Shown here in pieces: positions 16,817 through 57,454 of a stretch of 64,000 nt of DNA. The stretch covers positions 149,680-213,679 of the forward strand of contig NZ_RBIJ01000003.1 in the NCBI RefSeq assembly GCF_003633725.1. Direction: 5' to 3'. Each line of letters begins with the position of its first letter. Position 1 is the stretch's first letter. Both the position numbers and the translations under genes were made by a program. The notes beneath the pieces were generated by a model, which was not told where the DNA came from, searched no databases, and saw only the letters and a program-made list of their open reading frames with translations. Source of the stretch: Brockia lithotrophica (lineage in GTDB: Bacteria > Bacillota > Bacilli > Thermicanales > DSM-22653).

Positions 16817-16822
16817 GGTGCT

Positions 16823-18484
16823 TCAACCCCCTTGGTCGCCGGCGATCTCCTGAAGGACTTCTTCGACGGTCGTAAGCCCCTGCACCGCCTTGGCCAAAGC
16901 GTCTTCCCAAAGCGTGGTCATTCCCCGCTCGCGCGCCATGCGGTAGAGCTCGTCGCGCTTTGCCCCTTCGGAAATCGCCTGGCGCAAGGCCTCGTCGAGG
17001 TAAAGGACCTCATGCACCGCGATCCGTCCGAGGTAGCCCGTGCCTCCGCACGTCGGACAACCGCGTCCGCGGGTGAGTTCGGCGACGTCCATGCCCGCCT
17101 GATGGAGGAGCTTGAGTTCCCAGGCCTCCGGAGTGTAGGTTTCCGCGCATTCCGGGCAGACGCGGCGCACGAGGCGTTGGGCGACGACGCCGTTGAGGGA
17201 GGCGGCGATGAGGTACGGCGGCACCCCCATGTCCACGAGACGGTAGACGGTCCCCACAGCGTCGTTCGTGTGGAGCGTGGAGAGCACGAGGTGGCCCGTG
17301 AGGGCGGCGCGGATGGCGATCTCCGCCGTCTCCTGGTCGCGGATCTCTCCGACCATGAGGATGTCTGGGTCTTGCCGCAGGAGGGAGCGCAGCCCTGCGG
17401 CAAAGGTGAGTCCCGCCCGCTCGTTCACCTGCACCTGGTTCACGCCCGGGATCTCGTACTCCACCGGGTCCTCGATCGTCGTGATGTTCACCTCGTCGCT
17501 CTTGAGGTACTGAAGGGCCGCGTAGAGGGTCGTCGTCTTACCGCTCCCCGTAGGGCCCGTGAGGAGGACGATTCCGTGGGGCTGGCGGATCATGCGGAGG
17601 AAGAGCTCGTAGTTGTGGTCGGAAAACCCGAGCTCGTCGATCGTCTTGAGACCTGCGCGGCTGTCGAGAAGGCGGAGGACGATCTTTTCCCCGTGGATCG
17701 TCGGAAGCGAGGAGACGCGGACGTCGATCTCGCGGTCGTCCACGTGAAAGCTCATCCGACCGTCCTGCGGACGGCGGCGTTCGGCGATGTCCATGTTTGC
17801 GAGGATCTTGATCCGCGCGACGACCATGTTGTAGAGGCGGAAAGGAAGGGTCTGCTCGCGACGCAAGCGCCCGTCGATGCGGAAACGCACCTGCGCCCCA
17901 TCGGAAAAGGGCTCGATGTGTACGTCGCTCGCCCGCAGGCGTGCCGCCCGCTGCAAAGTTTCCGTGACGAAGCGGGCCGCCGGAGAGCTCACGTCGATGG
18001 CTTCGGGGGGACGAGACTCCTCCCCCTTCTCGCCCCCGCCCTCCGCCTCCCCGCTGTACAGGCGGGCCACGGCGTTGTGAAAGTCGGCACTCGAGGCGAG
18101 GTACGGCTTGACCTTGAGGCCCGTGACGCGCTCGAGGTCTTCGATGGCAAAAACGTCAAGCGGATCCAAAAACGCGACGTGGAGCACGTCTCCGTCCTGC
18201 TGAAAGGGAACCGCCCGGTACCGCTCCGCAAGTTCGCGCGGTACGAGGCGCACGAGGCGGGCATCGGGATGGTACCGGGAAAGGTGCACCTGGGGAATTC
18301 CCAGCTGCGAACTGAGCACGCGCAAGAGCTCGCCTTCCGTCACGTACCCCAAGGAGACGAGCACGTCCCCCAGGCGCTCGCGCGTCTTGCGCTGGCGGGC
18401 AAGCGCCTCCTCGAGCTCGGCCTGCGTGATGATCCCCCACTCCACCAGTAGGTCCCCCAACCGCTTCCTGGCTTCCGTCGCCAT
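16823..18484 (-). CDS. type IV pilus extension ATPase PilB/GspE
   Basis: 553-residue secretion ATPase. The N-terminal MshEN-type region (RLGDLLVEWGIITQAELEEAL) contains the repeat type known to bind cyclic di-GMP in MshE. Walker A is GPTGSGKTTT, followed by the Asp box EDPVEYEIPGVNQ, a Walker B-like region ILMVGEIRDQETAEIA and the His box TLHTNDA. A zinc motif CPEC...CPTCGGTGY lies near the C-terminus. The ATG follows GGGAGAGCGACC. First gene of the pilB-pilC-pilin operon, with a 160-base leader. Confidence 0.95.
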   Translation of the reverse strand: MATEARKRLGDLLVEWGIITQAELEEALARQRKTRERLGDVLVSLGYVTEGELLRVLSSQLGIPQVHLSRYHPDARLVRLVPRELAERYRAVPFQQDGDVLHVAFLDPLDVFAIEDLERVTGLKVKPYLASSADFHNAVARLYSGEAEGGGEKGEESRPPEAIDVSSPAARFVTETLQRAARLRASDVHIEPFSDGAQVRFRIDGRLRREQTLPFRLYNMVVARIKILANMDIAERRRPQDGRMSFHVDDREIDVRVSSLPTIHGEKIVLRLLDSRAGLKTIDELGFSDHNYELFLRMIRQPHGIVLLTGPTGSGKTTTLYAALQYLKSDEVNITTIEDPVEYEIPGVNQVQVNERAGLTFAAGLRSLLRQDPDILMVGEIRDQETAEIAIRAALTGHLVLSTLHTNDAVGTVYRLVDMGVPPYLIAASLNGVVAQRLVRRVCPECAETYTPEAWELKLLHQAGMDVAELTRGRGCPTCGGTGYLGRIAVHEVLYLDEALRQAISEGAKRDELYRMARERGMTTLWEDALAKAVQGLTTVEEVLQEIAGDQGG

Positions 18485-27516: not shown

Positions 27517-28998
27517 TCACGCTCCGCCCGGCTCTCCCAAGGCCTCGCGCAAGAGTTGGTTGACGAGCTCCGGATGCGCCTTCCCGCGCGTTTCGCGCAT
27601 GACCTGGCCGACGAGGAAGCCGAGGGCCTTTTCCTTGCCCTTTCGGTAGTCTTCCACGGATTTGGGGTTCGCCGCGAGGACCCGGTCTACGATCTCGCGC
27701 AGGGCCTTGGGATCCGCGATTTGCACGAGACCTTCGGCTTCCACGATCTCGCGCGGATCCCGTCCGCTCTCCGCCATGCGCTGAAAGACGGCCTTGGCGA
27801 TATTCGTAGAAATCGTACCGTTCTCGATCAAGGCGAGGAGTTCCGCCCACTGACGCGGGGTGATGGGAACGTCGCGAACGGCGAGCCCCCGCTCGTTCAC
27901 GTACCCCAGGAACTCACTCATGAGCCAGTTCGCCAGGGGTTTGGGCGGAGCCCCCTCGCGTACGCCCGCCTCGAAGAGGTCGCTGAGTTCGCGGTTGGCC
28001 GTGAGTACGCCGGCGTCGTAGGCGCTGAGTCCATATGTTTCCTGAAACTTTCTTCGGCGTTCCTTAGGAAGTTCAGGGAGTTCCGCACGAATGCGTTCTA
28101 TATAGCTTTCCTCGAGAACATAGGGAACAACCTCGGGTTCGTGTATCGGTCGGTAGTCAAAACCGCCAAATTTTTGACGCATGGAAAAGGTGCGACGAAG
28201 ATCTTCGTCCCAACGCCGCGTTTCGCTCACCACGCGTTCGCCGCGGCGGAGGAGGGAAATTTGCCGCTCGATCTCGTAGGCGACGGCGCGCTCGACTCCG
28301 GAGATGGAGTTCAGGTTCTTCACTTCTACCTTTGCCCCGAAGACAGGAGAACCCTTCGGACGCACAGATATGTTCGCATCAGCGCGGAGCGAGCCTTCCT
28401 CCATACGCACGTCGCTGATTCCCAGGTAGAGTATCGTGAGGCGCAATTCTTCAAGAAAAGCCCGTGCTTCCTCTGGAGAAGAGATGTCAGGTTCGGTAAC
28501 GATCTCGATGAGAGGGATGCCAGATCGATTGAAGTCAATGAGAGTCGCATTATCGCCATCACCCAGCAAGTGGATGCTTTTCCCAGCATCTTCTTCTAGG
28601 TGTATCTCGCGAATTCGGATAACCTTGGACCTCCCGCCTACATCGATGGTGAGTGAGCCGTTTCTCCCAATGGGAGCATGAATTTGGCTAATTTGATATG
28701 CCTTTGGAAGATCATGGTAAAAATACTGCTTGCGGTCAAAACGAACGCACCGTTCAATCTCGCAACCAAAGGCTAGCGTGGCGCGGAGAGCGTATTCTAC
28801 AGCCCGTTCGTTTAGGAGCGGGAGCATTCCCGGATGACCGAGGCAGATGGGACACGTATGCGCGTTGGGCGGGGCACCGAATGTCGTCGGGCAGGAACAA
28901 AAAAGCTTCGTGGCCGTGGCAAGTTCTACGTGCACTTCGAAACCAATTACCGCTTCGTACTCCGTCGCATGCGTTTCTCCACGTACCACGCTCATCAT
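27517..28998 (-). CDS. gatB: Asp/Glu-tRNA(Asn/Gln) amidotransferase subunit B
   Basis: 493-residue kinase/tRNA-binding subunit of GatCAB, which makes Gln-tRNA and Asn-tRNA by amidating misacylated tRNA. Visible: EAVIGFEVHVELATATKLFC, zinc-type CSCP...CPICLGHPG, DFNRSGIPLIEIVTEPD and ADANISVR, with a C-terminal YqeY-like domain. ATG overlaps the gatA stop, with AAGGTGG upstream. The 5' half has clearly lower GC (about 48-50%) than the genes around it, which suggests different ancestry or recombination. Confidence 0.97.
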   Translation of the reverse strand: MMSVVRGETHATEYEAVIGFEVHVELATATKLFCSCPTTFGAPPNAHTCPICLGHPGMLPLLNERAVEYALRATLAFGCEIERCVRFDRKQYFYHDLPKAYQISQIHAPIGRNGSLTIDVGGRSKVIRIREIHLEEDAGKSIHLLGDGDNATLIDFNRSGIPLIEIVTEPDISSPEEARAFLEELRLTILYLGISDVRMEEGSLRADANISVRPKGSPVFGAKVEVKNLNSISGVERAVAYEIERQISLLRRGERVVSETRRWDEDLRRTFSMRQKFGGFDYRPIHEPEVVPYVLEESYIERIRAELPELPKERRRKFQETYGLSAYDAGVLTANRELSDLFEAGVREGAPPKPLANWLMSEFLGYVNERGLAVRDVPITPRQWAELLALIENGTISTNIAKAVFQRMAESGRDPREIVEAEGLVQIADPKALREIVDRVLAANPKSVEDYRKGKEKALGFLVGQVMRETRGKAHPELVNQLLREALGEPGGA

Positions 28999-30536
28999 TC
29001 GTTCCCACCTTCCCGAGACGATAACTCCATAATCTTCCCCCCAAAAGGGGGGCGTGCCTCCAACGGACGTGCTTCCTCCCAGGAAAACGCAAAAGCGAGG
29101 ACGTCTAGATCGGAGTAGCGGGGCCCGACGATCTGAAGCCCCACAGGCATGCCGTCAGAACCGCGACCGGCAGGCACGCTCACCGCAGGCAGGCCCGCGA
29201 GGTTGGCAGGTATCGTGAGGAGGTCTTGCGTGAGTTCGACGACGGGATCGAGGTCCCCGGCGGCGCCTAAGGCCGGAGCCGTCGTCGGGGTCGTGGGTCC
29301 GAGGAGGAGGTCGTAGTCGGCAAAGAGCGCCTCAAGGCGGATGGCGAGAAAGCGGCGAGCACGGAGAGCTCGTTCGTACAGGTCAACAAAAGACTCAGAA
29401 AGTGTGACATAGGTGCCAAAGAGGATGCGGCGCTTCACCTCCCACCCAAACCCTTGGGATCGCGTCCAAGTGCTCAGCGTATCGACGTCCCCTGCCGGAA
29501 CGCGCAGCCCAAAGCGTACACCGTCGAAACGACCAAGGTACGATGCGGCTTCGGCGGTCATCACCACGGCGTATACGGCGCTCGCGAGCTTGAGCTCAGG
29601 GATGGACACTACCTCAACGTGGGCCCCGAGCTCTTCCATGCGGCGGGCAGCAGCTTCTATGGCAATGCGAACGTCGGGCGATACGCCATCTCCGAGGAAC
29701 TCACGGACAAGGGCCACCTTTACACCGGAAAATCCACGAGACAACAGAGCGTGCAAACGCTCGACGCGGGCAGGGTAGGCGAGCCGCTGGATTTCTGCAA
29801 GCTGATTCGCAAAGGCCGGAGGAAGTTTTCCAAAACTCGTAGGATCCTTGTGGTCGCTCCCGGAGATGTGGACAAAGGTATAAGCAGCATCGGCAACTGT
29901 ATTGGCAAGAACGCCTACGGTATCCAAGGATGCGGCCATATGAATAAGCCCAAAGCGAGAAATAAGCCCATATGTCGGTTTGAAGCCTACGATTCCCGTG
30001 TATGCTGCCGGTTGACGCACAGAGCCTCCCGTGTCGCTCCCTAAGGCAAGAGGGGTGAAGCCCGCGGCAACAGCCGCCGCCGAACCACCGCTCGAACCGC
30101 CAGCCGTGCGTGTGAGGTCCCACGGGTTACGTGTGGGACCGAAAGCGCTCGTCTCCGTCGAGACGCCCATGGCGAATTCATCGAGGTTTGTTTTGCCCAA
30201 GAGTACCGCACCACCAAGAGCAAGATGTTTCCATGCAGTGGCGTCTACGGGCGGCACGTAGGTTTCAAGTATTCGACTCCCCGCCGTCGTTCGCACGCCG
30301 CGGGTGAGAAAGTTGTCCTTTAAGGCGACGGGAATTCCAAAAAAAGGAAGCGTTTGCCGATCTTCCACCCTCAGGTTCCGCGCCTCTTCGCGTGCCTCCT
30401 CGCGCACGAGGAGGAAGGCGTGGATCTCGGGGTCGCGCGCGGCTATGGCCTCCAGGTAGTGCCGGGCGACGTCTTCGGGAGTCGCCTCGCCTGAGGCGAG
30501 GCGACTCCGCCACGCGAGTACGGAAAAGCCATCCAT
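28995..30536 (-). CDS. gatA: Asp/Glu-tRNA(Asn/Gln) amidotransferase subunit A
   Basis: 513-residue amidase that releases ammonia from glutamine for GatB. The Ser-cisSer-Lys triad is complete: Lys73 (VALKDN), Ser148 in TAGGSSGGSAAAV, Ser172 in GSDTGGSVRQPA, with the same spacing as in characterised GatA. So glutamine hydrolysis is kept here, in contrast to PurF and GuaA in this window. The ATG is behind GAGGAGTGAGGA. The 3' half shows reduced GC (about 47%). Confidence 0.97.
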   Translation of the reverse strand: MDGFSVLAWRSRLASGEATPEDVARHYLEAIAARDPEIHAFLLVREEAREEARNLRVEDRQTLPFFGIPVALKDNFLTRGVRTTAGSRILETYVPPVDATAWKHLALGGAVLLGKTNLDEFAMGVSTETSAFGPTRNPWDLTRTAGGSSGGSAAAVAAGFTPLALGSDTGGSVRQPAAYTGIVGFKPTYGLISRFGLIHMAASLDTVGVLANTVADAAYTFVHISGSDHKDPTSFGKLPPAFANQLAEIQRLAYPARVERLHALLSRGFSGVKVALVREFLGDGVSPDVRIAIEAAARRMEELGAHVEVVSIPELKLASAVYAVVMTAEAASYLGRFDGVRFGLRVPAGDVDTLSTWTRSQGFGWEVKRRILFGTYVTLSESFVDLYERALRARRFLAIRLEALFADYDLLLGPTTPTTAPALGAAGDLDPVVELTQDLLTIPANLAGLPAVSVPAGRGSDGMPVGLQIVGPRYSDLDVLAFAFSWEEARPLEARPPFGGKIMELSSREGGNE

Positions 30537-30545
30537 GGGGGTTCC

Positions 30546-42428: not shown

Positions 42429-43793
42429 TCATACGGCAGAAAAACGCTCGGCATACCGCCGGAGGTGCTCTTCATCGGCGACGTCTTCGCGCAGGAAAAA
42501 CCCCGCCTCCCGAAACGGGGCCGCCCAGGCGTACGCGCGACGGCGCGCCTCTTCCCAGTCCGCGCCCAATCCCACAACCGTGAGGAGTCGGCCGCCGTGG
42601 GAAACGAGGCGGGCGTCGTGGGAACGGAAGACCCCACGCCGGGTGCGCGTAAAGTCTACCCCCTCCGCCGCGCGCACGTTGGCGTAGTACACGCGCAAAA
42701 GCGGCGTCTCCCCGCGAGCCACGGGAAGCGTCGGGTCGGCAGGATAGGGCAAAGGAAGTCCCCGAACCGGGGCTTCCGGATAGCCGGGAGCGGCGACGAC
42801 GACGCCCACCGCCCGTTCTTCGCGAAAGCGCAGGGCATCGGCACGCAGGCGCCCTTCGGCGAGCCCGGAGAGAACTGCGCCGAGATCCCCGGCGACGCGG
42901 CTCAAGAGGATCTGAGCCTCCGGATCACCGAAGCGCACGTTGAACTCGAGGACGTGCGGCCCTTCCGCCGTCCACATGAGCCCGAGGTAGAGGATGCCCC
43001 GGTAGGAAATCCCCCGGCGATCGAGGGCGGCGAGGAGGGGATCGAGGACTTCTGCGCGTACGCGCGCCTCCGCCGCGGGACCGTACCCCGGAAGCGGGGA
43101 AAACCCGCCCATCCCCCCGGTGTTCGGACCGACGTCCCCTGTCCCTAGGCGTTTGTAGTCGCGGACGGGCGGCAGAAGGACCGCCTCGTTGTCGGCGACG
43201 AGGGCGTGCACGGTCAGCTCCACGCCCTCGAGAAAGCGTTCGACGACCACCCGGCTTCCCGCCTCGCCGAAGCGGCGGGCCTCGAGCATCTCTCCCAGGG
43301 CGGCGCGGGCTTCCTTCTCGTCGCCGGCGACGACGACACCCTTCCCCTGGGCAAGGCCGTCGGCCTTGATCACGAGAGGGTAGGGACCTGAGGCGAGGAG
43401 GTCTTCGGCTTCGGAGATATGCTCGACCACGCGAAACTCGGCCGTTGGAATTCCCGCCTCGCGCATGAGCTCTTTGGCGAACACCTTGCTCGCCTCGAGG
43501 CGGGCCCCTTCCCTACCGGGGCCTACCACGGGAATCCCGCGCGCGCGGAGGACGTCGGCAAACCCGTGGGCCAACGGCTCTTCCGGGCCGACGACGACGA
43601 GGTCGACGCGCTCCGCGCGCACGCGTTCGGCGATCTCTTCCGGCTCAGTCCAGGGGATTCTCCACACGTCGCCGAGGACGCCCATGGCATCTGTTCCCGG
43701 CGTGAAGCTCACGCGCCGAACGCTCGGCGAGCGAAGAAGGGCGACTCCCAGGGCGTACTCCCGCCCACCAGACCCTACGACGAGCACATGCAC
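42429..43793 (-). CDS. purD: phosphoribosylamine-glycine ligase
   Basis: 454-residue ATP-grasp enzyme, second step of purine synthesis (phosphoribosylamine + Gly + ATP to GAR). N-terminus VHVLVVGSGGREYALG; ATP-grasp motifs PLVIKADGLAQGKGVVVA and NTGGMGGFSP; metal site LEFNVRFGDPEAQ. The GTG start follows GGGGAGG at 8 bases and fits the family N-terminus; the frame extends to 43847. Last gene of the pur operon. Its substrate, phosphoribosylamine, comes from PurF, which here lacks a glutaminase. Confidence 0.95.
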   Translation of the reverse strand: MHVLVVGSGGREYALGVALLRSPSVRRVSFTPGTDAMGVLGDVWRIPWTEPEEIAERVRAERVDLVVVGPEEPLAHGFADVLRARGIPVVGPGREGARLEASKVFAKELMREAGIPTAEFRVVEHISEAEDLLASGPYPLVIKADGLAQGKGVVVAGDEKEARAALGEMLEARRFGEAGSRVVVERFLEGVELTVHALVADNEAVLLPPVRDYKRLGTGDVGPNTGGMGGFSPLPGYGPAAEARVRAEVLDPLLAALDRRGISYRGILYLGLMWTAEGPHVLEFNVRFGDPEAQILLSRVAGDLGAVLSGLAEGRLRADALRFREERAVGVVVAAPGYPEAPVRGLPLPYPADPTLPVARGETPLLRVYYANVRAAEGVDFTRTRRGVFRSHDARLVSHGGRLLTVVGLGADWEEARRRAYAWAAPFREAGFFLREDVADEEHLRRYAERFSAV

Positions 43794-43866
43794 ACGGGCC
43801 ACCTCCCCGGCACCGCGCGACGGGGTGCGCACGGTATTTTCTCCCATCTACGTGCCGCTTCCGTGA

Positions 43867-45549
43867 TCAGTGGCGAAAGACGCGGACGTCCGTGAAGACC
43901 ATGGCAATGCCGGCCGCATCGGCAGCCTGAATGACTTCCGCATCGCGTACGGAACCGCCGGGCTGGACGATCGCCCGTACGCCCGCGGCGCGGGCGAGCT
44001 CTACGGTATCGGGAAAGGGCAAAAATCCGTCCGAGGCGAGGACGGCGCCGCGGGCGCGCTCGCCGGCCTGGCGCAGGGCGATTTCCGCCGAACCCACGCG
44101 GTTGGGCTGTCCCGCACCTACCCCCACCGTAACTCCGTCTCGGGCGAGGACGATGGCGTTCGACGTCACGTGGGCGGACACCGTCCAGGCAAGGCGCAGG
44201 CTCGGCCAGAGCTCCTCCGGGACCGGATGGGCGCCCACGGTGCGGAAGGAAGGCGCGCGCCGTTCGCGTACGGAGAGGAGAAGCCCTCCCCGGACGCTCC
44301 GAAGGTCGAGGTCTTCCGCGGGACGGAGGAAGTCGCGGGGGTACACGAAGACGCGCAGGTTTTTCTTGCGCGTGAGGGGCTCGAGGAGGTCGAGGTCCGT
44401 CCCCTCCGGAAAGAGGACGACGTCGAGGAAGATCTCCGCCAACGCCTGTACGAGCGCCTCGTCGGCGGGCCGGTTTACGGCCACGACGCCGCCGAAGATG
44501 GACACGGGGTCGGCGTCGTGCGCCCGGCGGTACGCTTCGAGGACGTCCGCGCCGATCGCCGCCGCCGCGGGCGAGGCGTGTTTGAAGACGACTGCGGCCG
44601 GAGCGGAAAATTCCGCCTCAAGGTCGGCGAGGAGGCGCAGGGCGCGTTCGACGTCGAGGTAGTTCGTGTACGAAAGGGGCTTCCCACTCAAGAGTCGGAG
44701 ATCGGCCAGGGAAGGCCCCGAAGCTCCGGCGAGGCGGAAAAACGCACCGCGCTGATGGGGGTTTTCGCCGTAGCGGAGCTCTTTTCCTTCTACACCCCAG
44801 ACGACGATCGACCGCGGCAGGGGCGAGGGAGGTTCCGAAGCCGCACCGCCCGGAAGGGCCGCTGCCCCTCCGGCAGCGAGAACCTCTTCCCAAGGAAGTG
44901 GGGCGCTTTCCTCCTGCGCCCCTTCGTTTTCGGGTTTTTCCGCGGGGGAAGCCGTCCCCAGTTCCCCGAAGCGGCCTTCGCGAAAGGCGTAGGCAATGGC
45001 CAAATCGTAGAAGGCCGTACGGCGAAACGCGCGTTCGGCGAGCGCGCGACGTACGGCGAGGGCGCGCTCCGGAGGGGCGTCGAGACCTTCGAGGGCGAGG
45101 GAGACGTCCGCAGGAGAAGAGACGACGAAGACGCGCGCGTGGGCCTTCGCCGCGGCGCGGAGGAGGGCGACGCCACCGATGTCCACGAGTTCGACGAGTT
45201 CCTCGCCGCGCAAGCCCTTGTCCCGCGCGTCCTCAAACGGGTAGAGGTCGACGACGACGAGGTCGAACGGTACGCCTCCCGCCGCCTCTACGGAAGAGAG
45301 GTCTTCGGACGTGGGGCGTGCGAGGATTCCCGCAAACACGCGAGGGTGCAAGGTCTTCACGCGCCCTCCCAAGAGCTCAGAAAAGCCGGTCAACGTATCG
45401 AGGGAGATCACGGGGAGCCCAGCCTCCCGCAGGTAGGCCGCCGTGCCCCCAGAAGCGTAAAGTTCTACGCCCCGACGCACCAGTTCTCGGGCAAAGGGGA
45501 GATACGGCGGCTTCGTGTAGAGGCTCATGAGCGCGCGGCGTACGGGCAT
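43867..45549 (-). CDS. purH: bifunctional AICAR transformylase/IMP cyclohydrolase
   Basis: 560 residues. The N-terminal IMP cyclohydrolase domain has GVELYASGGTAAYLREAG and GGRVKTLHPRVFAGIL; the phosphate loop normally reading SVSDKTG is here SLYTKPP (Ser and Lys kept). The transformylase domain has the catalytic Lys-His in FKHASPAAAAIG, plus RYGENPHQ and SNAIVLARDG. A Glu/Ala/Pro-rich insert (about residues 195-240) precedes RYGENPHQ. The ATG is behind AAAGGAGG. It makes IMP, the end product of the operon. Confidence 0.95.
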   Translation of the reverse strand: MPVRRALMSLYTKPPYLPFARELVRRGVELYASGGTAAYLREAGLPVISLDTLTGFSELLGGRVKTLHPRVFAGILARPTSEDLSSVEAAGGVPFDLVVVDLYPFEDARDKGLRGEELVELVDIGGVALLRAAAKAHARVFVVSSPADVSLALEGLDAPPERALAVRRALAERAFRRTAFYDLAIAYAFREGRFGELGTASPAEKPENEGAQEESAPLPWEEVLAAGGAAALPGGAASEPPSPLPRSIVVWGVEGKELRYGENPHQRGAFFRLAGASGPSLADLRLLSGKPLSYTNYLDVERALRLLADLEAEFSAPAAVVFKHASPAAAAIGADVLEAYRRAHDADPVSIFGGVVAVNRPADEALVQALAEIFLDVVLFPEGTDLDLLEPLTRKKNLRVFVYPRDFLRPAEDLDLRSVRGGLLLSVRERRAPSFRTVGAHPVPEELWPSLRLAWTVSAHVTSNAIVLARDGVTVGVGAGQPNRVGSAEIALRQAGERARGAVLASDGFLPFPDTVELARAAGVRAIVQPGGSVRDAEVIQAADAAGIAMVFTDVRVFRH

Positions 45550-45630
45550 GTCCGAACCTCCTTTATTTCTCGCTCTTTTTGCCTTCGCCTGTGCGGGAGA
45601 GCGAAGGCCGCAAAACGATCCGCACGACAC

Positions 45631-46305
45631 CTAAGTTTCGGGTTCTCCTTCTCGCAAGAAGCGTACGCGCCGGCCTTCGAGGACGAGCCCTTCGCGGAGA
45701 ATCCGGGAGAGCACGGCCGGGTAGAGGCGGTGCTCAACGCGCTTGATCCGCGCCGCCAACGTCTCCGGAGTGTCCGTAGGCCGCACGTCCACGGGGCGCT
45801 GGGCGACGATCGGGCCCGTATCCACGCCCTGGTCCACGAGGTGGACGGTCGTTCCGGTCACCTTGACGCCGTAGGCGAGAGCCTGCCCGACGGCGTCCTT
45901 TCCCGGAAAGGCGGGGAGGAGAGCGGGATGGAGGTTGAGGATTCTCCAAGGATAGGCGCCGAGGAGCGTAGGTCCTACGAGGCGCATGTACCCCGCGAGG
46001 ACGAGCCACCGCGGGGCGAAGGGGCGCAAAAAGGCGAGAATTGCCTCCTCAAAGGCTGCCTTGTCGGGAAAGTCGCGCACCGACCGGGCGAAGACCGCCC
46101 GTCCCAGGCGGCGAAACTTCCGCACAACGGGGGCTTCGGGCCGGTCGCTCACGAGTGCCACGACGCGGTAGACCCCTTCTTTCCGGACGAGTTGTACGGC
46201 GTTGGATCCCTCCCCCGAGGCGAAGACGGCGACAGGCACCGGCTCCGCTCCCGGGTGCCACTCCGGCGGGATCTCGAGGCGTTCGGCGCGTTCTTCTTCA
46301 GACAC
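45631..46305 (-). CDS. purN: phosphoribosylglycinamide formyltransferase
   Basis: 224-residue 10-formyl-THF-dependent GAR transformylase. Core: VPVAVFASGEGSNAVQL, catalytic Asn and His in ILNLHPALLPAFPG, and Asp in HLVDQGVDTGPIVAQ. The chosen GTG follows GGGGAGGGGG and adds about 24 acidic residues (SEEERAERLEIPPEWHPGAE) before the Rossmann core, an extension not usual in PurN. The C-terminus after LYPAVLSRILREG is standard. Formate-derived formyl-THF supplies the carbon, so no amide chemistry is involved. Confidence 0.93.
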   Translation of the reverse strand: MSEEERAERLEIPPEWHPGAEPVPVAVFASGEGSNAVQLVRKEGVYRVVALVSDRPEAPVVRKFRRLGRAVFARSVRDFPDKAAFEEAILAFLRPFAPRWLVLAGYMRLVGPTLLGAYPWRILNLHPALLPAFPGKDAVGQALAYGVKVTGTTVHLVDQGVDTGPIVAQRPVDVRPTDTPETLAARIKRVEHRLYPAVLSRILREGLVLEGRRVRFLREGEPET

Positions 46306-46385
46306 AAGTTCCCCCTCCCCGAATTCTTCCTCTTCGACGCTTCCCGCCGCATCGCGCGAACGCCGAGGCGGGGCTGCGAAGGCGG

Positions 46386-47432
46386 TTACACGGGAAGCTC
46401 CCCGCCGTACCGGAAACGCACGGCGGCCTCTTCCCCACCGCGATCCCGTTCTACGAGGCGTCCGAGGACGACCGGCCTTTCCCCGAGGGCTTCGAGGGCC
46501 TGCCGCACGTCGCCGAGGCGTTCCGGAGGGACGACGAAGACGAAGCCGATCCCCTGATTCCACACGGTGTATGTCTCGCGGTCCTCGAGGTTTGCGGCCG
46601 CCTGCGCGCGCCGAAAGACTTCGGGAACTTCCCACGCGCCGAGCACGACTTCCGCCGCGAGCGTGGAAGGAAACACGCGGGCGAGGTTTTCGGGAAACCC
46701 CCCGCCGGTGATGTGTGCGGCGGCCTTGGCACCTGCGGCAAAAGCCGCCGCGGCCTGACGGACGTAGAGCCGCGTCGGCATAAGGAGCTCGTCGGGGGTG
46801 AAGAGGTTTGGGTCGCGGGCGAGGAGGGCGCGGAGCAGGCTGTAGCCGTTTGCGTGAAAGCCGGAACTCGCGAGGCCCACGAGCAGGTCGCCGGCAACCG
46901 GCGTCGGCCGCGCGAGGGAGGCGCGGGAGGCGACGCCCACCGCAAATCCCGCGAGCTCGAGGGATCCTTCCGGAAGCATCCCCGGGAGTTCGGCGGTTTC
47001 GCCCCCTAGAAGAACTGCTCCGACCTCGCGTAGGGCGTCGACCATGCCCGCAACGAGGCGTTCGATTGCGTCGGGGTCGAGGCGCCCCATGGCCACGTAG
47101 TCGAGGAAGAAGAGCGGCCGTGCCCCCTCCGCCGCCAGGTCGTTCACGTTCATCGCCACGAGGTCCCAGCCGGCAACCTCGAGCCGACCGTGGGCCTGGG
47201 CGAGAAGGAGTTTCGTACCCACGCCGTCGGCCGAGGCGAAGAGCACGGGGTCGTCGAGCCCCTCCGGAAGGCGGATCGCACCGGCAAAGGCGCCGATGCC
47301 GCGCAAGACTTCCGGTCCGTGCGTCCCTCGGACGAGTTTGGCGACGCGTCGGACGACCTCCGCACCCCGATCGAGGTCGACGCCGGCGCGGCGGTAGGCT
47401 TCGGCGGAACCCGATTCGCGTGCCCGCTCCAT
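46386..47432 (-). CDS. purM: phosphoribosylformylglycinamidine cyclo-ligase
   Basis: 348-residue AIR synthetase. YRRAGVDLDRGAEVVRRV at the N-terminus, ADGVGTKLLLAQ, DLVAMNVNDLAAEGARPLFF, LLGGETAELPGMLPEG and VGLASSGFHANGYSL are diagnostic. ATG behind GAGGAGGTACGAGCG. It closes the imidazole ring with ATP. It lies 39 bases after purF in the conserved F-M-N order. Confidence 0.96.
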   Translation of the reverse strand: MERARESGSAEAYRRAGVDLDRGAEVVRRVAKLVRGTHGPEVLRGIGAFAGAIRLPEGLDDPVLFASADGVGTKLLLAQAHGRLEVAGWDLVAMNVNDLAAEGARPLFFLDYVAMGRLDPDAIERLVAGMVDALREVGAVLLGGETAELPGMLPEGSLELAGFAVGVASRASLARPTPVAGDLLVGLASSGFHANGYSLLRALLARDPNLFTPDELLMPTRLYVRQAAAAFAAGAKAAAHITGGGFPENLARVFPSTLAAEVVLGAWEVPEVFRRAQAAANLEDRETYTVWNQGIGFVFVVPPERLGDVRQALEALGERPVVLGRLVERDRGGEEAAVRFRYGGELPV

Positions 47433-47471
47433 CGCTCGTACCTCCTCACTGAACGTTCGGTTCGCCCGCAC

Positions 47472-48794
47472 CTATCCGTTCCTCGGAACGAGGCAGGCCG
47501 TGCACACGCTTCCCCGGGGGAAAAGGGAGGCAAAGGTTTCGAAGTCGAGGTAGGCGAGGGAATCCGCGCCGATGCGCGCGGCGAGTTCCTCGGAGGACAT
47601 CGCGCCCATGGGCGGGGGTTCTGGGCCAAAGAATCCGTATACGCAAGGCGCGGTCACCGGAGGCGAGGCGATGCGGACGTGAACCGCGCGCGCCCCCGCG
47701 TCGCGCAAGAGCTTGAGGAGGCGCGCCGCGGTAGAACCGTACACGAGCGAATCGTCCACGAGGGCGAGGCGCTTTCCGTGCACGAGCTCGCGGACGAGAG
47801 CGAACTTGGCCTCGAGGACAGCGTCCCGTTCCCCTTGGGCGAGGAGGAAGCTGCGGGGTGCGGCAGGAGACTTTACGAGCACCCCTTCGAGCGGAAGTCC
47901 GAGGGTCTGGGCGTACCCGAGCGCTTGGGGAAAGGCCGTATCCGGGGCGTACACCACCATATCCGCCTCTGCGGGCGCCTGGCGGGCCAACTCCTCTCCC
48001 AGGCGCTTCCGCGCCGCGTACAGGCTCGTGCCGAAAAAGCGGCTGTCGGGCCGGGAGATGTACAAAAGCTCGAAGGCGCATACGCCGCGGGCAAAGGGAT
48101 GCGCCTCGCCTCGAGATCCCGCCTCCCCAGGGAGAGGGCGTGGGATGTAGCGAACCTCGCTTCCGTTCCAGCGCCAGCGGCTCACCTGTCCGGCACGAAC
48201 TTCCGAGACGGAAAATCCCAAGGCTTCCAAAGGAGACGTCTCGCTCGCCAGCGCTACGAGATCCCCCTTGCGCCCCACGAAGAGAGGATAAACGCCGGTG
48301 GCGTCGCGGACGGCGGAAAGCCCGTCCCGGGCCACCATTACGGCCGCAAAGGGTGCAGGCAGAGCGGCGGCCTCGGAGCGGCCCGCAAGGACGGAACGGA
48401 CGCCCTCGGCCTCTTCAGGAGGTAGCGCCCCGAGGTAGGCGACGGCTCCCTCGCCCGATGCGCCGTCTGTGGTCGGAACGTCGATCCACCCGCCGCCTTC
48501 GGCGAGCACGAGCGCCAAAGTCCCTAGCGCACCGCCTTCCAGGCGGACGGGGGAACACCCGCCGACCCCCACGGTCGCACCGCTCCCACCGCCCCGTCCG
48601 GGCACCCCTGCGTCGGCCTCGGGGACGGAAACGCGACGCTCGGCGGGGGTGAGCCCGAGGACGCGCCCGCCGCGGTGTAGGAGGGCGTGAACGGCGCGCG
48701 AGGCGAGGAGTTGGAGGTCTTCGGCGGCCGACGGCGCCCCCTCCTCTCCCCCGATCGGGGGCAAGTAGAGGGCGAAAAGCCCCCCGCCTTTCAC
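47472..48794 (-). CDS. purF: PRPP amidotransferase PurF with degenerate glutaminase domain
   Basis: 440 residues. GTG start overlaps the purL stop (GTGA) behind GGGAGGGGG, so the N-terminus MKGGGLFALY is secure. Canonical PurF begins CGVFGIW; here the nucleophile is Gly. The glutamine-binding segments HVRY and AHNGN are replaced by GGCSPVRL and LAEGGG, although HALLHRG keeps the fold recognisable. The PRTase half is present: FELLYISRPDS, then VDDSLVYGST (normally VDDSIVRGT). Four cysteines at 239, 384, 431 and 434 match the Bacillus Fe-S ligands. The flexible loop NRYVGRTF reads SPAAPRSF. Likely makes phosphoribosylamine from PRPP and free ammonia. Confidence 0.9.
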   Translation of the reverse strand: MKGGGLFALYLPPIGGEEGAPSAAEDLQLLASRAVHALLHRGGRVLGLTPAERRVSVPEADAGVPGRGGGSGATVGVGGCSPVRLEGGALGTLALVLAEGGGWIDVPTTDGASGEGAVAYLGALPPEEAEGVRSVLAGRSEAAALPAPFAAVMVARDGLSAVRDATGVYPLFVGRKGDLVALASETSPLEALGFSVSEVRAGQVSRWRWNGSEVRYIPRPLPGEAGSRGEAHPFARGVCAFELLYISRPDSRFFGTSLYAARKRLGEELARQAPAEADMVVYAPDTAFPQALGYAQTLGLPLEGVLVKSPAAPRSFLLAQGERDAVLEAKFALVRELVHGKRLALVDDSLVYGSTAARLLKLLRDAGARAVHVRIASPPVTAPCVYGFFGPEPPPMGAMSSEELAARIGADSLAYLDFETFASLFPRGSVCTACLVPRNG

Positions 48795-51184
48795 GGCGTT
48801 TCCCCCTCCCGAGAAGGCTCGCGGTCGTCTCCCGAGGAGGACGGGGGAGACACGAGGCCGAGGAGGGCGAGCTCGCGGGAGAGCCAACCTCCGATTTCCT
48901 CCGGCCCGAGGCGCACGGAAATCCCGCCGATTTCCACGCCCTCCCGCCGCACCTCCCCCAAGGGGATTGCCCGGAGGCCCTCGCCGCGCGCCCGCGCGCA
49001 GAAATCGTCTGCGGCCGCCCGCCTGACGACGAACACGCCGTAGGCCCCTTCGCCAAAGAGAAGGGCCAAACCTTCTAACGCCGTGCCCCCGACCTCGCCG
49101 AGGGCGACGCCGCTTCCCGAAGAGGTCGCCATCTGGAGAAGCGCGCCGAGGGCTCCGCCTTCGCGGACGGCACGCGCCGCGAGAATCCCGTGGCGGAAGG
49201 AGCCGTCGGCGTACAGGCGCGCGAGTGCGCTGCGCAGGCGCTCTTCCCCTTCGCGTTGCGGCGCCAGGGGGATTCGGCTCACGCGCGCGAGGATTTCCCC
49301 CGCCCGCGCGCGGAGTTCCTCCGCTCCGTAGGCCGCGGCGAGGAAGGGAAGGAGGCGCAAGGGACCGCTTCCTACCAAGAAGACAGGGGCCGCTTCGTCT
49401 ACCGCTTCCTCATCCCACGTTCCGGGAACGGCGGGGCGCGGCGAAGAACCAAAGGCTACGAGGAGCGGGGTAGGAAGAATCCCCCGTTCCGCCGTCTCGT
49501 TGTACAGGCTTACGTTGCCGCTCACGAAAGGCACCGAAGCAGCGCGCGCCGCGGCGGAAAACCCGAGAACCGTCTCGACGAGCGAGCGGTAGACGTCGTC
49601 TCGCTCCGGGGAGCCAAAGTTCAGGTTGTCCGAAAGTCCGAGCGGCGTAAGGCCGCGTACCGCGAGGGAACGGAGGGCGGCAAAGACGGCCATCTGGGCG
49701 GCACCGTAGGCGTCCAACGCAAAGGCGTTCCCCTCCCCTGCCCCGCTCATCCCCCATGCGGCGGGAGGTTCGGAGCCCACGTCCACGAAGGCTACGTCGT
49801 CGAAGGCCCACCCCCGCAAAGGAGGCTCCGCCCCTTTCCCGCCATCAGGCCGCACCTTCTCTCTCCTCCGGACGAGGCGCCGCGGAAAGCGGGGCGAGGT
49901 GAAGTAGCGTTGGAGGAGATCACGAACCGTCGAAGCGTCAAGGAACACGAGGCCAATTTGGGCGAGGAGTTCGCGCTCCTCAGGAAACACGAGCTCCTCT
50001 TCCGCCCGCTCCGGACGCGCATCGGGGGAACCTTGCGGTACGGCTTCCCGCACCTCTTCGGCCGCCCGGACGGAGGCGAGCACGTCCTCGCGCACGACGG
50101 GAGCGACATCCGTGAGCTCCGCCAGAGGAACCTCCGCGAGTAGGGCATCGCCCCGACGGACGGCAAACGTGCCGGAGGAAACGAGGCGCCCCACGACGGC
50201 CGCCGGCACCTGATGCGTGCGGAAGTGGTCGAGAAGTTCCTCGACGTGTGCCGGATCGGCTACGACGAGCACCCGTTCCTGCGTTTCCGCGAGAAGGAGG
50301 ACCTCCGGGGGGAAATCCCGCATGCGAGGAACGTGTTCGAGGTCGAGGACGACCCCGCCCGGGCCGCGGCTTGCGAGCTCGGCGGCCGAACCCGCCACAC
50401 CCCCTGCACCCATGTCCTGCACGGCGACGACCCACCCGCGGCGGGCGGCGGCGAGCAAGGCGTCCATCACGCGCCGACCCATCCGCGGATCCGCAGGGGG
50501 AACGAGGGGCGGGGCATCGGCGGAATCCCCTTCGGCTTCGGGAGGCAGCGCCTCTTCGGAGGCGAAGGCGCGGGAGGCAAAGGCCGCCGCTTCGTACCCC
50601 GCACCGTCCACGGGGCGACCCGCGTACACGAGCACGTCCCCGTCCCGCCCGCCGCGCGCGGAAAGGCGGGGGCCTACGATTTCGCCCAAGGCGAAGACGT
50701 TGACGAGCGGGTTTGCCGCGTAGGAAGGATCCGCGGCGTACTCTACGTACGCACCCTCGCCGACGCCGAATTCGGCGACGTACTCCGCAAAGCCCCGGAC
50801 GAGCGTACGCGTGAACTCCACTTCTTCTGCCAGGTGCGCGGGGCCAACGCGGAGGAGCGCTGCGGCGAGCCGCGGCTCCGCCCCCATCGTAAAGACGTCC
50901 CGGTACAGGCCGCCGATTCCCGTGGCCGACCCGGCGTAGGGGTCGATTTTGGACGGGTGGTTGTGGCTCTCGATCTTAAACGCAGCCGCGTTTCCGTCCG
51001 CAGCTACCACACCCGCGCCCTCGCCCGGCCCGGCAAGGACGTGGGGACCCTCGCGCGGCAAAAGAGCCAAAAGGCGTTTCGTATGGCGGTAGCTCATGTG
51101 CTCGGATGTGAGGATCTCCTTGAGGGCGGCGGCGATCTTCGCGGCGGTCGTCTCCTCCTGCGGAGTGCGCTCAACCTCTGCCAT
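48791..51184 (-). CDS. purL: FGAM synthase large component PurL, without PurS/PurQ partners
   Basis: 797-residue PurL, longer than the roughly 740 of Bacillus. The catalytic histidine is in TSEHMSYRHTK (His29; the common Cys is Met), followed by AGPGEGAGVV, IESHNHPSKIDPYAGSATGI, VAVQDMGAGG and LSDNLNFGSPE, so the ATP-dependent core is kept. The segment normally reading TTDCNARY is not conserved. ATG behind ACGGAGGGA. It has no fused glutaminase domain. The usual neighbours purS and purQ are absent: only 44 bases separate it from purC. It probably uses free ammonia, unless PurS/PurQ are encoded elsewhere. Confidence 0.9.
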   Translation of the reverse strand: MAEVERTPQEETTAAKIAAALKEILTSEHMSYRHTKRLLALLPREGPHVLAGPGEGAGVVAADGNAAAFKIESHNHPSKIDPYAGSATGIGGLYRDVFTMGAEPRLAAALLRVGPAHLAEEVEFTRTLVRGFAEYVAEFGVGEGAYVEYAADPSYAANPLVNVFALGEIVGPRLSARGGRDGDVLVYAGRPVDGAGYEAAAFASRAFASEEALPPEAEGDSADAPPLVPPADPRMGRRVMDALLAAARRGWVVAVQDMGAGGVAGSAAELASRGPGGVVLDLEHVPRMRDFPPEVLLLAETQERVLVVADPAHVEELLDHFRTHQVPAAVVGRLVSSGTFAVRRGDALLAEVPLAELTDVAPVVREDVLASVRAAEEVREAVPQGSPDARPERAEEELVFPEERELLAQIGLVFLDASTVRDLLQRYFTSPRFPRRLVRRREKVRPDGGKGAEPPLRGWAFDDVAFVDVGSEPPAAWGMSGAGEGNAFALDAYGAAQMAVFAALRSLAVRGLTPLGLSDNLNFGSPERDDVYRSLVETVLGFSAAARAASVPFVSGNVSLYNETAERGILPTPLLVAFGSSPRPAVPGTWDEEAVDEAAPVFLVGSGPLRLLPFLAAAYGAEELRARAGEILARVSRIPLAPQREGEERLRSALARLYADGSFRHGILAARAVREGGALGALLQMATSSGSGVALGEVGGTALEGLALLFGEGAYGVFVVRRAAADDFCARARGEGLRAIPLGEVRREGVEIGGISVRLGPEEIGGWLSRELALLGLVSPPSSSGDDREPSREGETP

Positions 51185-51228
51185 CCTCGCGTCCCTCCGT
51201 ATGTATCGTTTGGGCGTCGCCCGGCTTC

Positions 51229-51993
51229 TTACGGCGAGGCAAATTCGGGAAACCGTTCTGCTAGGCGCCGGTAGACGAAGGCGTACCCTTCGAGGAGGTC
51301 GCCCAAGTCGCGGCGAAAACGGTCTTTGTCGAGCCGCTCGCCTTCCTTCGTCCAAATGCGCATGGAATCGGGCGAGAGTTCGTCGGCGAGGACGATCTCT
51401 CCGTCGGAAGTTTCCCCAAACTCGAACTTCACGTCCACGAGGACGAGGTCGACGGCGGCAAAGATCTCTCGAAGCGCCTCCGCGGCGCGCCTCGCCTCGT
51501 CCTTGAGGTACCGGACGACTTCCGGGGACGCGAGGCCGAGAAGGGCGACGTGGTCTTCCGTAAGCAAAGGATCTCCGAGTTCGTCCGACTTGTAGTAGAG
51601 CTCCACGAGCGGAAAAGGAAGCGGTTGTCCCTCCGGAATGCCCAAGCGACGGCTCAAAGACCCCGTGGCGAGGAAGCGCACGACGACCTCCAAGGGAATG
51701 ATGCGGACGCGGCGCACGAGGTGCTCCACCGGCGCGAGTTCGCGCAGGAAGTGCGTCCGTATCCCCTTGGCGGCCAAGGCGCGGAAGAGAAGCGCGCTCG
51801 TCCGGGCCGCGAGCTCCCCCTTTCCCGGAAACTCCTCGCGTTTCGCGCCGTCCCCCGCCGTCACGGCGTCGGTAAAGACGACGCGCACGCGGTCGGGATC
51901 GTCCGCGGCGAAGACCTTTTTGCTCTTCCCCGCGTAGAGGGGCGTCCCGCGGGGTTCTGCGGCACCGGTGTGGGCGGAGTTGTGCTCGTCCAT
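51229..51993 (-). CDS. purC: SAICAR synthetase
   Basis: 254-residue enzyme joining CAIR and aspartate. PLYAGKSKKVFAADDP, GKGELAARTSALLFRALAAK, IPLEVVVRFLATGSLSRR, VDVKFEFGETSDGEIVLADE and the substrate motif LSPDSMRIW are all typical. ATG behind GGAGGGATCCCG. An N-terminal extension of about 15 residues is present. It lies 44 bases upstream of purB's end and 44 bases before purL. Confidence 0.96.
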   Translation of the reverse strand: MDEHNSAHTGAAEPRGTPLYAGKSKKVFAADDPDRVRVVFTDAVTAGDGAKREEFPGKGELAARTSALLFRALAAKGIRTHFLRELAPVEHLVRRVRIIPLEVVVRFLATGSLSRRLGIPEGQPLPFPLVELYYKSDELGDPLLTEDHVALLGLASPEVVRYLKDEARRAAEALREIFAAVDLVLVDVKFEFGETSDGEIVLADELSPDSMRIWTKEGERLDKDRFRRDLGDLLEGYAFVYRRLAERFPEFASP

Positions 51994-52037: not shown

Positions 52038-53393
52038 CTACGCCTCTCCCTCCGCGAACGTCGGCCCCAAAACGCGGCGGTACCGCTCCGCTTCGTGGCG
52101 GAGGAAGTGCCGCACGAGGGCGTCGAAAAAGCGCTCTTCCGCCTCCGCCTCGCCCCCCGAGGCGACCTCGGGAAAGACGCGTTCTACCGCAGCGCGGAGT
52201 GCGGAATCCTCGAGGATGCGCCGGAGAAACGACGGCGGCCCCTCGAGGGCGCGAAAGGCGAGCTCCTGAAGGCGCGCGTACGCATCCTCGCGGCGGATTC
52301 CTTGGGCGACGAGGAGGTCGAGGAGGAGGGAGGAGGCAAACAGGCCGCCCGTGCGCCGCAGGTTTTCCCGCATCCGTGTTGGGTCGACCTTGAGGTGTAC
52401 GAGGAGTTCACGCGTGCGCCAGAGCATGTAGTGAAGGACCGTCGTCGCGTCGGGAAAGATCACGCGTTCTACGGAGGAGTGGGAAATGTCCCGTTCGTGC
52501 CAGAGGGGGACGTTTTCGAACGCGGCGAGCATGTAGCCCCGAAGAAGGCGCGCCAGGCCGGAGACGTTTTCGAAGCCCACTGGGTTTCGCTTGTGCGGCA
52601 TCGCCGACGAACCCTTCTGGCCAGGGGAAAAGCCCTCCTCCACCTCCTCCACTTCGCTCCGGGCGAGATGGCGCATTTCCACGGCGAGGTGTTCGAGGGA
52701 TGTGCCCAGAAGCGCGAGGGCGGCGAGGTATTCGGCAAAGGTGTCGCGCGGGAGGACCTGCGTCGCCGCAGGCGCCGGCTCGAGGCCGAGGCGCCGCAGC
52801 GCCGCCTCTTCGATTTCCGGGGGAAGGTGGGAAAACGTCCCTACGGGACCGGCGATCTTCCCCCGCGCCGCACGCCGCGCCGCCGCCCGCAGGCGTTCTT
52901 CGCCGCGGCGGAGCTCGTCGTAAAAGCCGAGGAGCTTGAGGCCGAAGGTCGTCGGTTCCGCCGCCTTCCCGTGGGTACGGCCGAGGATGGGAACGCCGCG
53001 GTAGGTGAGGGACATATCCCTGAGGAGCTGCAAAAGGCGGTCGAGCTCGGCGAGGAGGAGTTCGGAAGCCTCCCGGAGGAGAAGCGCCCACGCCGTGTCT
53101 ACGACATCGGCACTCGTAAGCCCGTAGTGTACCCATCGCCCGGCGGGGCCGACCTGCTCGGCGACGTGCTCGACGAAGGCGATCGTGTCGTGGCGCGTGC
53201 GCGCCTCGATTTCCGCGATGCGCGCAGGGTCGATGCGCACCTCCCGCTTGAGCACGGCGAGGTCTTCGGGGGGGACGACGCCCGCCTCGGCGAGCGCCTC
53301 GAGTACGGCGAGCTCTACCCGCCACCACGCGTGAAACCGGTTTTCTTCGGACCAGAGGCGCGCCATTTCCGGTCGCGTGTAGCGCGCGAGCAC
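52038..53393 (-). CDS. purB: adenylosuccinate lyase
   Basis: 451-residue lyase acting on both SAICAR and adenylosuccinate. N-terminus RYTRPEMARLWSEENRFHAW; HYGLTSADVVDTAWAL; catalytic His in GRTHGKAAEPTTFGLK; the signature loop SSAMPHKRNPVGFENV carries the catalytic Ser. GTG start with GGGAGG only 3 bases away. It directly follows purE with 45 bases between, where Bacillus has purK. Confidence 0.97.
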   Translation of the reverse strand: MLARYTRPEMARLWSEENRFHAWWRVELAVLEALAEAGVVPPEDLAVLKREVRIDPARIAEIEARTRHDTIAFVEHVAEQVGPAGRWVHYGLTSADVVDTAWALLLREASELLLAELDRLLQLLRDMSLTYRGVPILGRTHGKAAEPTTFGLKLLGFYDELRRGEERLRAAARRAARGKIAGPVGTFSHLPPEIEEAALRRLGLEPAPAATQVLPRDTFAEYLAALALLGTSLEHLAVEMRHLARSEVEEVEEGFSPGQKGSSAMPHKRNPVGFENVSGLARLLRGYMLAAFENVPLWHERDISHSSVERVIFPDATTVLHYMLWRTRELLVHLKVDPTRMRENLRRTGGLFASSLLLDLLVAQGIRREDAYARLQELAFRALEGPPSFLRRILEDSALRAAVERVFPEVASGGEAEAEERFFDALVRHFLRHEAERYRRVLGPTFAEGEA

Positions 53394-56143: not shown

Positions 56144-57454
56144 TCACTCCCACTCGATCGTTGCCGGTGGTTTGTCCGTGACGTCGTAGACGACGCGAGC
56201 GACGGCGGGAAGTTCGGTCGTAAGCCGGTGGGCGATTTTGCGCAGGAGCTCGTAGGGGAGTTCGGCGGCGCGGGCGGACATCGCCTCCTCGGAAACGACG
56301 GCGCGGACGGCGACGACTTCCCCTTCCCGCCTCCGTCCGTCCTTCGCCCCTACGGTTCGAACCCCCGGAAGCACGGCGAAGTACTGCCAGAGGGTGGGGG
56401 CTACGTCCGACGAACCAATCTCCTCGCGCACGATGCGGTCTGCCTCCCGGAGGAGCTCAAGCCTCTCCGCGGTGACCTCGCCGACGACGCGTACGGCAAG
56501 GCCGGGACCGGGAAAGGGTTGGCGCTCCACGAGGGAAGCGGGAAAGCCGAGGTGGCGGGCGATCTCCCGAACTTCGTCCTTGAGGAGCGGACGCAAGGGT
56601 TCGACGAGCGTAAAGGACACGCGTTCGGGCAACCCCCCAACGTTGTGGTGCGCCTTGACCCCTCCGCGTCCCACGCTCTCGATGAGGTCGGAATACACCG
56701 TACCCTGCACGAGGTACGCAACGTCCGGGATGCCGGCAACCTCCCGTTCGAAGACGCAGATAAACGTCTCGCCTACGGCGCGGCGTTTCGCTTCCGGGTC
56801 GACGAGGCCACGAAGCGCCGCGAGAAAGGCGTCCCGCGCGTCCACCCGGCGCACGGGAAGGCCGAGGATTTGCGTGAGCGCGGCGGGAACCTCTTCCGCC
56901 TCTCCCGCTCGCAGGAGGCCGTGGTCGACGAACAGGGGCACAAGGCGATCCCCAAGGGCTCGGGCGACGAGGGCAGCGGATACCGCCGAATCGAGTCCGC
57001 CGGAAAGGGCGACGACGGCCCGACCTTCTCCGAGGTGTGCGGCAAGCTCCGCGACGCAGCGTTCGGCAAACGCGATCGGCGTGTAGGCCGGCCCGCCCCC
57101 GACGAGTTCGCGAAGGGCGGCGAGGAGCTGGGAAAACCCTTCGTCGTCGGAAAACGAGACAAAGGCGTTCTCCCGCGTTCCGGAAAGAAACGTCTCTCCG
57201 TCCGGCGGAGCCGCTCCTTCTTCCCACAGCACAGGGACCCCTGCGGTGCGAAAGCGGAAAAAGAGTTCGCGTTCTTCCGGGGTCCAAAATCCCTCCTCCG
57301 TCCGGGGAAGGACGAGGGCGGCGGGGAGGTCGTCGCGTTCTCCCGGAAGCGGAAGCTCCGCGTAGATCCCCGCCCGGCGCAGGCGGCGAAGGAGGCGTTC
57401 GTCGGCGGTAAAGACGAGAACCCACGGGCGGAAACGGCAGGTAACGAGGGACAT
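56144..57454 (-). CDS. guaA: GMP synthase GuaA with vestigial glutaminase domain
   Basis: 436 residues instead of about 515. The ATP-pyrophosphatase half is complete: P-loop ALSGGLDSAV (residues 149-158), FVDHGLLRAGEAEEV, AHHNVGGLPERV, RQPFPGPGLAVRVVGEV and the C-terminal YDVTDKPPATIEWE. The N-terminal half still aligns at its start (VLVFTADERLLRRLRRAGIY, then PVLWEEG against PVLGICYG) but lacks the catalytic Cys and the whole region with GVQFHPE: about 125 residues remain of about 200. ATG behind GGAAGGAG, single unbroken frame. Expected to amidate XMP with free ammonia. Confidence 0.93.
   Translation of the reverse strand: MSLVTCRFRPWVLVFTADERLLRRLRRAGIYAELPLPGERDDLPAALVLPRTEEGFWTPEERELFFRFRTAGVPVLWEEGAAPPDGETFLSGTRENAFVSFSDDEGFSQLLAALRELVGGGPAYTPIAFAERCVAELAAHLGEGRAVVALSGGLDSAVSAALVARALGDRLVPLFVDHGLLRAGEAEEVPAALTQILGLPVRRVDARDAFLAALRGLVDPEAKRRAVGETFICVFEREVAGIPDVAYLVQGTVYSDLIESVGRGGVKAHHNVGGLPERVSFTLVEPLRPLLKDEVREIARHLGFPASLVERQPFPGPGLAVRVVGEVTAERLELLREADRIVREEIGSSDVAPTLWQYFAVLPGVRTVGAKDGRRREGEVVAVRAVVSEEAMSARAAELPYELLRKIAHRLTTELPAVARVVYDVTDKPPATIEWE

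Follow-up and report, generated by a model that had tools for sequence, protein, structure and literature searches.

Glutamine is generally regarded as an almost universal donor of amide nitrogen. At high concentration and pH, however, NH3 is accepted by PurF and most amidotransferases with no help from the glutaminase, so the use of ammonia by a PurF that has lost its nucleophile is chemically easy. The protein described here shares with the Bacillus-type PurF (PDB 1gph, 1ao0; TIGR01134) the PRTase half, the PRPP motif, four Fe-S cysteines and the position in the pur operon, and differs from it in having no N-terminal Cys, in the loss of the glutamine contacts, in a changed flexible loop and in a score below the curated cut-off. 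The NAD synthetases offer a parallel, as many of them are single-domain proteins that have no glutaminase and work on free NH3 in vivo (PMC3376133). The same survey found 0% of glutaminase-less AsnB, PyrG, GuaA, PurL, TrpDE, and CarAB in 570-800 genomes each, whereas the lineage studied here (family f1) lost the glutaminase in several of these enzyme families together. Bacteria without glutamine synthetase have been described: the ammonia-tolerant anaerobes Syntrophaceticus schinkii and Tepidanaerobacter acetatoxydans are, like three of the five f1 genomes, non-symbiotic and devoid of the enzyme, and theirs is a background in which glutamate dehydrogenase is present; unlike in f1, neither the loss of glutaminase domains nor a regained glutamine island is reported for them (PMC5113046). 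The ant endosymbiont Blochmannia vafer also lacks glutamine synthetase (PMC3017870), but it is obligately intracellular with host supply, and no conversion of its amidotransferases to NH3 use has been reported. Among searchable open-access papers, we found no report of a lineage losing these glutaminases together, nor of an island restoring them, and two papers on hydrogen- and coal-gas-fed Bacilli, covering Brockia and its coal-seam relatives (PMC5928048, PMC10215811), do not mention glutamine.

The window analyzed here is a stretch of 64,000 nucleotides (64.5% GC) of the Brockia lithotrophica genome, located on a contig of 245 kb (NZ_RBIJ01000003.1, hereafter C3). We compared this genome (G000) with the four others available for its family: G001, a sister species of the same genus (g1), G003 (genus g3), and G002 and G004, both outside g1. 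The draft genomes G001, G002, and G003 represent three genera and are 92-97% complete (97% for G001). The relevant features of the window are the following.

27517..29154, minus strand: gatB, stop-to-stop frame, from a sequence search
28995..30545, minus strand: gatA, stop-to-stop frame, 476 bits for a cut-off of 481
42429..43847, minus strand: purD, from its translation and G001
43867..45630, minus strand: purH, from its translation and G001
45631..46635, minus strand: purN, open reading frame as listed, with the true start probably further in; from its translation (the G001 orthologue has 224 aa)
46386..47471, minus strand: purM, from its translation and operon order, which is the same in G001
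47472..48794, minus strand: purF, amidophosphoribosyltransferase with an inactivated Ntn glutaminase domain (Cys1 to Gly), from alignment, TIGR01134 score and the G001 orthologue
48791..51355, minus strand: purL, native, without adjoining purS or purQ; from its translation, below the curated PurL cut-offs
51229..51993, minus strand: purC, immediately upstream of purL, purS and purQ being absent in between; from its translation
52038..53393, minus strand: purB, from its translation
56144..57454, minus strand: guaA, native GMP synthase, from a model match and its translation

The purF gene starts at a GTG that overlaps the stop codon of purL (GTGA), with GGGAGGGGG immediately upstream as a strong ribosome site, in line with the preliminary description of this DNA. 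The protein begins with (V/M)KGGGLFALY where its relatives have EECGVFG, and the alignment with canonical PurFs places a Gly at the position of the Cys. The catalytic N-terminal Cys of class II (Ntn) amidotransferases is thus missing, as had been noticed. The 102 in-frame codons that precede the start encode no Cys, which rules out a mis-set start as the cause, and a sequencing error is ruled out by G001, which carries the same protein in the same operon. The earlier claim that the Arg, Asn-Gly, and Asp contacts to glutamine are all gone holds for three residues of four: the Arg of G-H-V-R-Y is absent, the SSDTE segment is deleted together with its Asp, and NGNL/NGAL reads LGAL, with Leu instead of Asn and the Gly kept. 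The match to TIGR01134, the NCBIfam purF equivalog, reaches 191.5 bits for a curated cut-off of 350 and is confined to positions 155-427 of the 432 of the model; the Pfam GATase_7 score (18.7 bits) is also under its cut-off (25). The PRTase half is retained, with all four Fe-S cysteines (CAFE, PCVYG, and CTAC columns) and a PRPP-binding motif, (L)VDDSLVYGST in place of VDDSIVRGTT, that still conforms to the type I PRTase pattern. The changes announced for this motif and for the flexible loop NRYVGRTF, here SPAAPRSF, were also found. AlphaFold2, run on a shallow alignment of four rows, returned a mean pLDDT of 37.8, too low for the model to be of use.

The G001 orthologue is 86% identical, lies in the same pur operon (purL-F-M-N-H-D), and also reads GGLFA. 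It is the sole PurF candidate of that genome, where the pur operon is otherwise intact. The dN/dS between the two species is 0.19 overall, 0.24 in the N-terminal domain and 0.12 in the C-terminal PRTase domain, which indicates that selection continues to act on each half of the protein; given these values and the conservation in G001, we reject the reading of purF as a pseudogene. The native PurF of G003, encoded in its own purF-M-N-H-D operon, has GGLFA and no Cys either, but keeps NRYVGRTF and VDDSIVRGTT, so the loop changes are specific to genus g1. The phenomenon goes beyond the relaxed coupling between domains that had been proposed from the loop and the changed Arg: outside the island described below, the family has no glutamine synthetase, and glutaminase parts of PyrG, GuaA, PurL, HisF, and CarB are lost too. 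Judging from these motifs, the family probably lost the Cys early on, and the changes in the loop followed later, in g1. The common ancestry of the loss in g1 and g3 is based on the GGLFA motif and the PyrG pattern rather than on the PurF tree, where the native proteins have extremely long branches and cannot be placed. The family search found no PurF of any kind in the draft genome G002. In G004, a fragment with only the PRTase (C34:138961-139572, minus strand) has KNRYVGRPF and VDDSIVRGTT and no glutaminase domain; from its sequence, it may be what is left of the native purF, or else a minimal PRTase. The PurF of the window is itself a novel variant of the enzyme.

The other glutamine-dependent enzymes of the family follow the same trend. 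Glutamine synthetase, found in all 14 control genomes and in 389 of the 399 genomes of the class, was not found by family searches in the draft genomes G001, G002, and G003, and within the family it is confined to the island described below. The same searches found neither PurQ nor PurS in these three genomes, and the native PurL of the window scores 398 and 373 bits for curated cut-offs of 648 and 526. The native CTP synthase PyrG has lost its nucleophile in the five genomes of the family (GICLGMQ reads GIGLGMQ in G002, G003, and G004, and ALGYGFP in G000 and G001). The glutaminase domain of GuaA is lost in G000, G001, and G002; in the window, only about 115 residues of it are left, without the Cys motif GICYGMQ, which is also absent from G001 and G002, and the model match runs from position 185 onward. 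G001-G003 have CarB but no CarA, and HisF comes after HisA with no HisH. Otherwise, the search for GATase domains in these three genomes matched PyrG and, in two of them (G001 and G002), a protein of another kind of about 260 aa, so that matches for CarA, HisH, and TrpG/PabA are lacking. In G005, an ordinary genome from the same order, the genes that make up the island described below are dispersed over 3.6 Mb. Single absences in genomes that are 92-97% complete could be assembly gaps, but this is unlikely as a general explanation because the absences are joint and the losses of Cys coordinated. To judge from gene content, native amidation in G001-G003 most likely runs on free NH3.

Several observations count against a lineage relying on ammonia only, among them the lack of any PurF match in G002. 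The search found no complete GlmS in G001, and we found no source of glucosamine-6-phosphate in this genome. GatCAB is kept in all genomes of the family, so some amide donor must feed the formation of Gln-tRNA. The native GatA copies that were seen carry the amidase motifs and an altered LSSGYYDAYY segment; in the window, the Lys and Ser motifs are present and this segment reads LSESFVDLYE. G004 has two gatCAB sets, one whose GatA has the usual LSSGYYDAYY and another with LSAGRYEDMY, like the native one of G002, as if GatCAB too had been regained. Outside the family, seven more genomes of the class lack a match to the glutamine synthetase of the island (G046, G173, G257, G266, G284, G344, and G398), four being members of a single genus (f3 g72); the seven may carry a different type of the enzyme or represent further lineages without it.

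The genome of the window has, in addition, an island of glutamine genes. As far as C3:220515, the gene order of C3 matches that of G001; from there the contig passes directly into this block, which is absent from G001; at the break, the GC content falls from about 67% to about 58%, and we found no tRNA attachment site nearby. The block extends over 24.5 kb to the end of the contig and encodes hisF, hisH, a 221-aa ANTAR-like gene, glutamine synthetase, a glutamine-type nadE, purL, purQ, purS, guaA, glmS, asnB, and gltB. The island carries on in C11 (pabB-pabA) and in C7, a contig of 21.9 kb and 54% GC made almost exclusively of glutamine-related genes: purA, gatD, murT, a trpE-G fusion, pyrG, pdxS, pdxT, carB, carA, an IS607-like pair, and purF (names read from translations, some of them checked against models). 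The joining of C3, C11, and C7 is based on the gene order, which is the same as on C17 and C18 of G004, and not on reads. In G004, where the two contigs join through a split asnB, the island spans about 48 kb. Its content, HisFH, NadE, PurLQS, GuaA, GlmS, AsnB, PabAB, PurF, CarAB, PdxST, PyrG, TrpEG, and GatD-MurT, comprises nearly every glutamine amidotransferase along with glutamine synthetase and glutamate synthase. The far end is unassembled, and the IS607-like pair lies inside C7 (a resolvase and a TnpB-like gene at 15868-17528, between carA and purF). In G004, the hisF end of the island is followed, at about 16700-26900 of C17, by what by eye appear to be genes for a urea-type ABC transporter and urease, another source of ammonia.

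The proteins of the island are 77-98% identical between G000 and G004, an excess over the values of the native proteins of the same genomes (56% for PyrG, 48% for CarB, and 57% for GatB). This difference indicates horizontal transfer at a time when the two genera had long been separate. Outside the family, the island is closest to genus g8 of family f6: its glutamine synthetase shares 86-91% identity with the copies there and about 65% with that of the next genome, and in the tree the PurF of the island groups with the f6 g8 PurF (support 100/99). This genus has a cluster of the same genes (G032 C79, G009 C40) that is the closest to the island in sequence and likewise shows hisF, hisH, the ANTAR-like gene, and glnA together with guaA and pdxST, with purLQS and carAB in G032. 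Unlike the island, it is partial, with PyrG and PurF elsewhere in the genome. The 221-aa protein lies beside glutamine synthetase in G000 (C3:224062-224727, minus strand), G004, G032, and G009; it had no NCBIfam match, and its C-terminal segment looks ANTAR-like by eye. The protein may serve the cluster as a nitrogen regulator. The two f6 g8 genomes also differ in purine genes: G009 has PurL (C24:23140-27152) and a PurF with a canonical score, with no PurQ above the cut-off and no PurS found, and G032 has two different PurLs.

The island bears directly on the function of the Cys-less PurF, since it carries a second, canonical purF (C7:18060-19400, 558 bits, ECGVFG). The preliminary description had stated that such a gene would refute an ammonia-using PurF. 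It is present in G000, on acquired DNA, and G001 has none, so that the proposal is well supported but not for the gene taken in isolation. One could argue that the canonical enzyme carries all the flux to phosphoribosylamine in G000 and that the native protein is a decaying or regulatory pseudo-enzyme, all the more as G004, which has the island, has its native purF reduced to a PRTase fragment. We regard this as unlikely, given the dN/dS between the two species of g1, the retention of the PRPP and Fe-S motifs, and the full pur operon of G001, which has no other PurF. A quite different concern is that the canonical purF and the rest of the island are contamination of the assembly and that the organism has the Cys-less PurF alone. 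The small size and the low GC of C7 relative to the window, as well as the listed contamination of G000 (1.58%), fit this idea. Yet glutamine synthetase, PurL, PurQ, GuaA, GlmS, AsnB, and GltB are on C3 itself, beyond a clean synteny break with G001, the block is found with an identical order in another genus, and a random contaminant would not consist almost only of glutamine enzymes. The continuity of C3 and the block of G004 make contamination very unlikely.

It is just as hard to believe that the native PurF depends on glutamine indirectly, through NH3 released by an unlinked glutaminase. PurL, CarB, and TrpE as a rule have glutaminase subunits that act in trans (PMC3376133, Table 1), but the members of the family with the same Cys-less enzymes lack glutamine synthetase, the class I and class II glutaminase domains that we searched are missing from them, and the pur operon has no gene for a docking partner. 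Finally, as two genera have the island with its genes in an identical order, it could be ancestral and have been lost from G001, G002, and G003 rather than gained by G000 and G004. We give this scenario very little credit: it is at odds with the excess identity of the island over the tested native proteins, its proteins group with family f6, and it coexists with native copies that have dead glutaminases.

We are thus rather confident that the PurF of the window is an ammonia-only enzyme, part of a family-wide abandonment of glutamine, and that two lineages gained the island later. The use of ammonia is supported because the Cys and the glutamine pocket are lost while the PRPP motif and the Fe-S cysteines are kept under purifying selection in an intact pur operon. 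An ancestor of the family lost glutamine synthetase, and its PurF, PurL/QS, PyrG, GuaA, CarAB, and HisFH lost glutaminase domains, subunits or catalytic cysteines. The genes of the synthetase cores remain, and their products would be fed by NH3. In PurF, the PRTase half would make phosphoribosylamine from PRPP and free NH3, and the N-terminal domain would be a dead remnant retained for architecture. Later, horizontal transfer brought the island, about 48 kb long, into G000 and into G004, from another genus. Cells with the island may switch between two modes of biosynthesis, using the native enzymes when NH3 is plentiful and those of the island, with glutamine provided by its own synthetase, when NH3 is scarce.

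To our knowledge, the system around this PurF has no precedent. Several enzymes that were never glutaminase-less in the 2012 survey (PMC3376133) appear to be of the ammonia type in a single lineage without glutamine synthetase. This makes it testable whether the architecture of glutamine use and ammonia channels is essential or merely an adaptation to low ammonia. For genome annotation, it means that GuaA and similar proteins of the family would be labeled "glutamine-hydrolyzing", probably wrongly. On balance, we favor the view of a free-living family that does without glutamine as a nitrogen donor, where NH3 feeds the synthesis of purines, pyrimidines, histidine, and carbamoyl-phosphate, where glutamine is perhaps only a tRNA-bound residue made via GatCAB, and where two genera regained the whole module. 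The regained island would then show that a trait this central to metabolism can be transferred as one unit.
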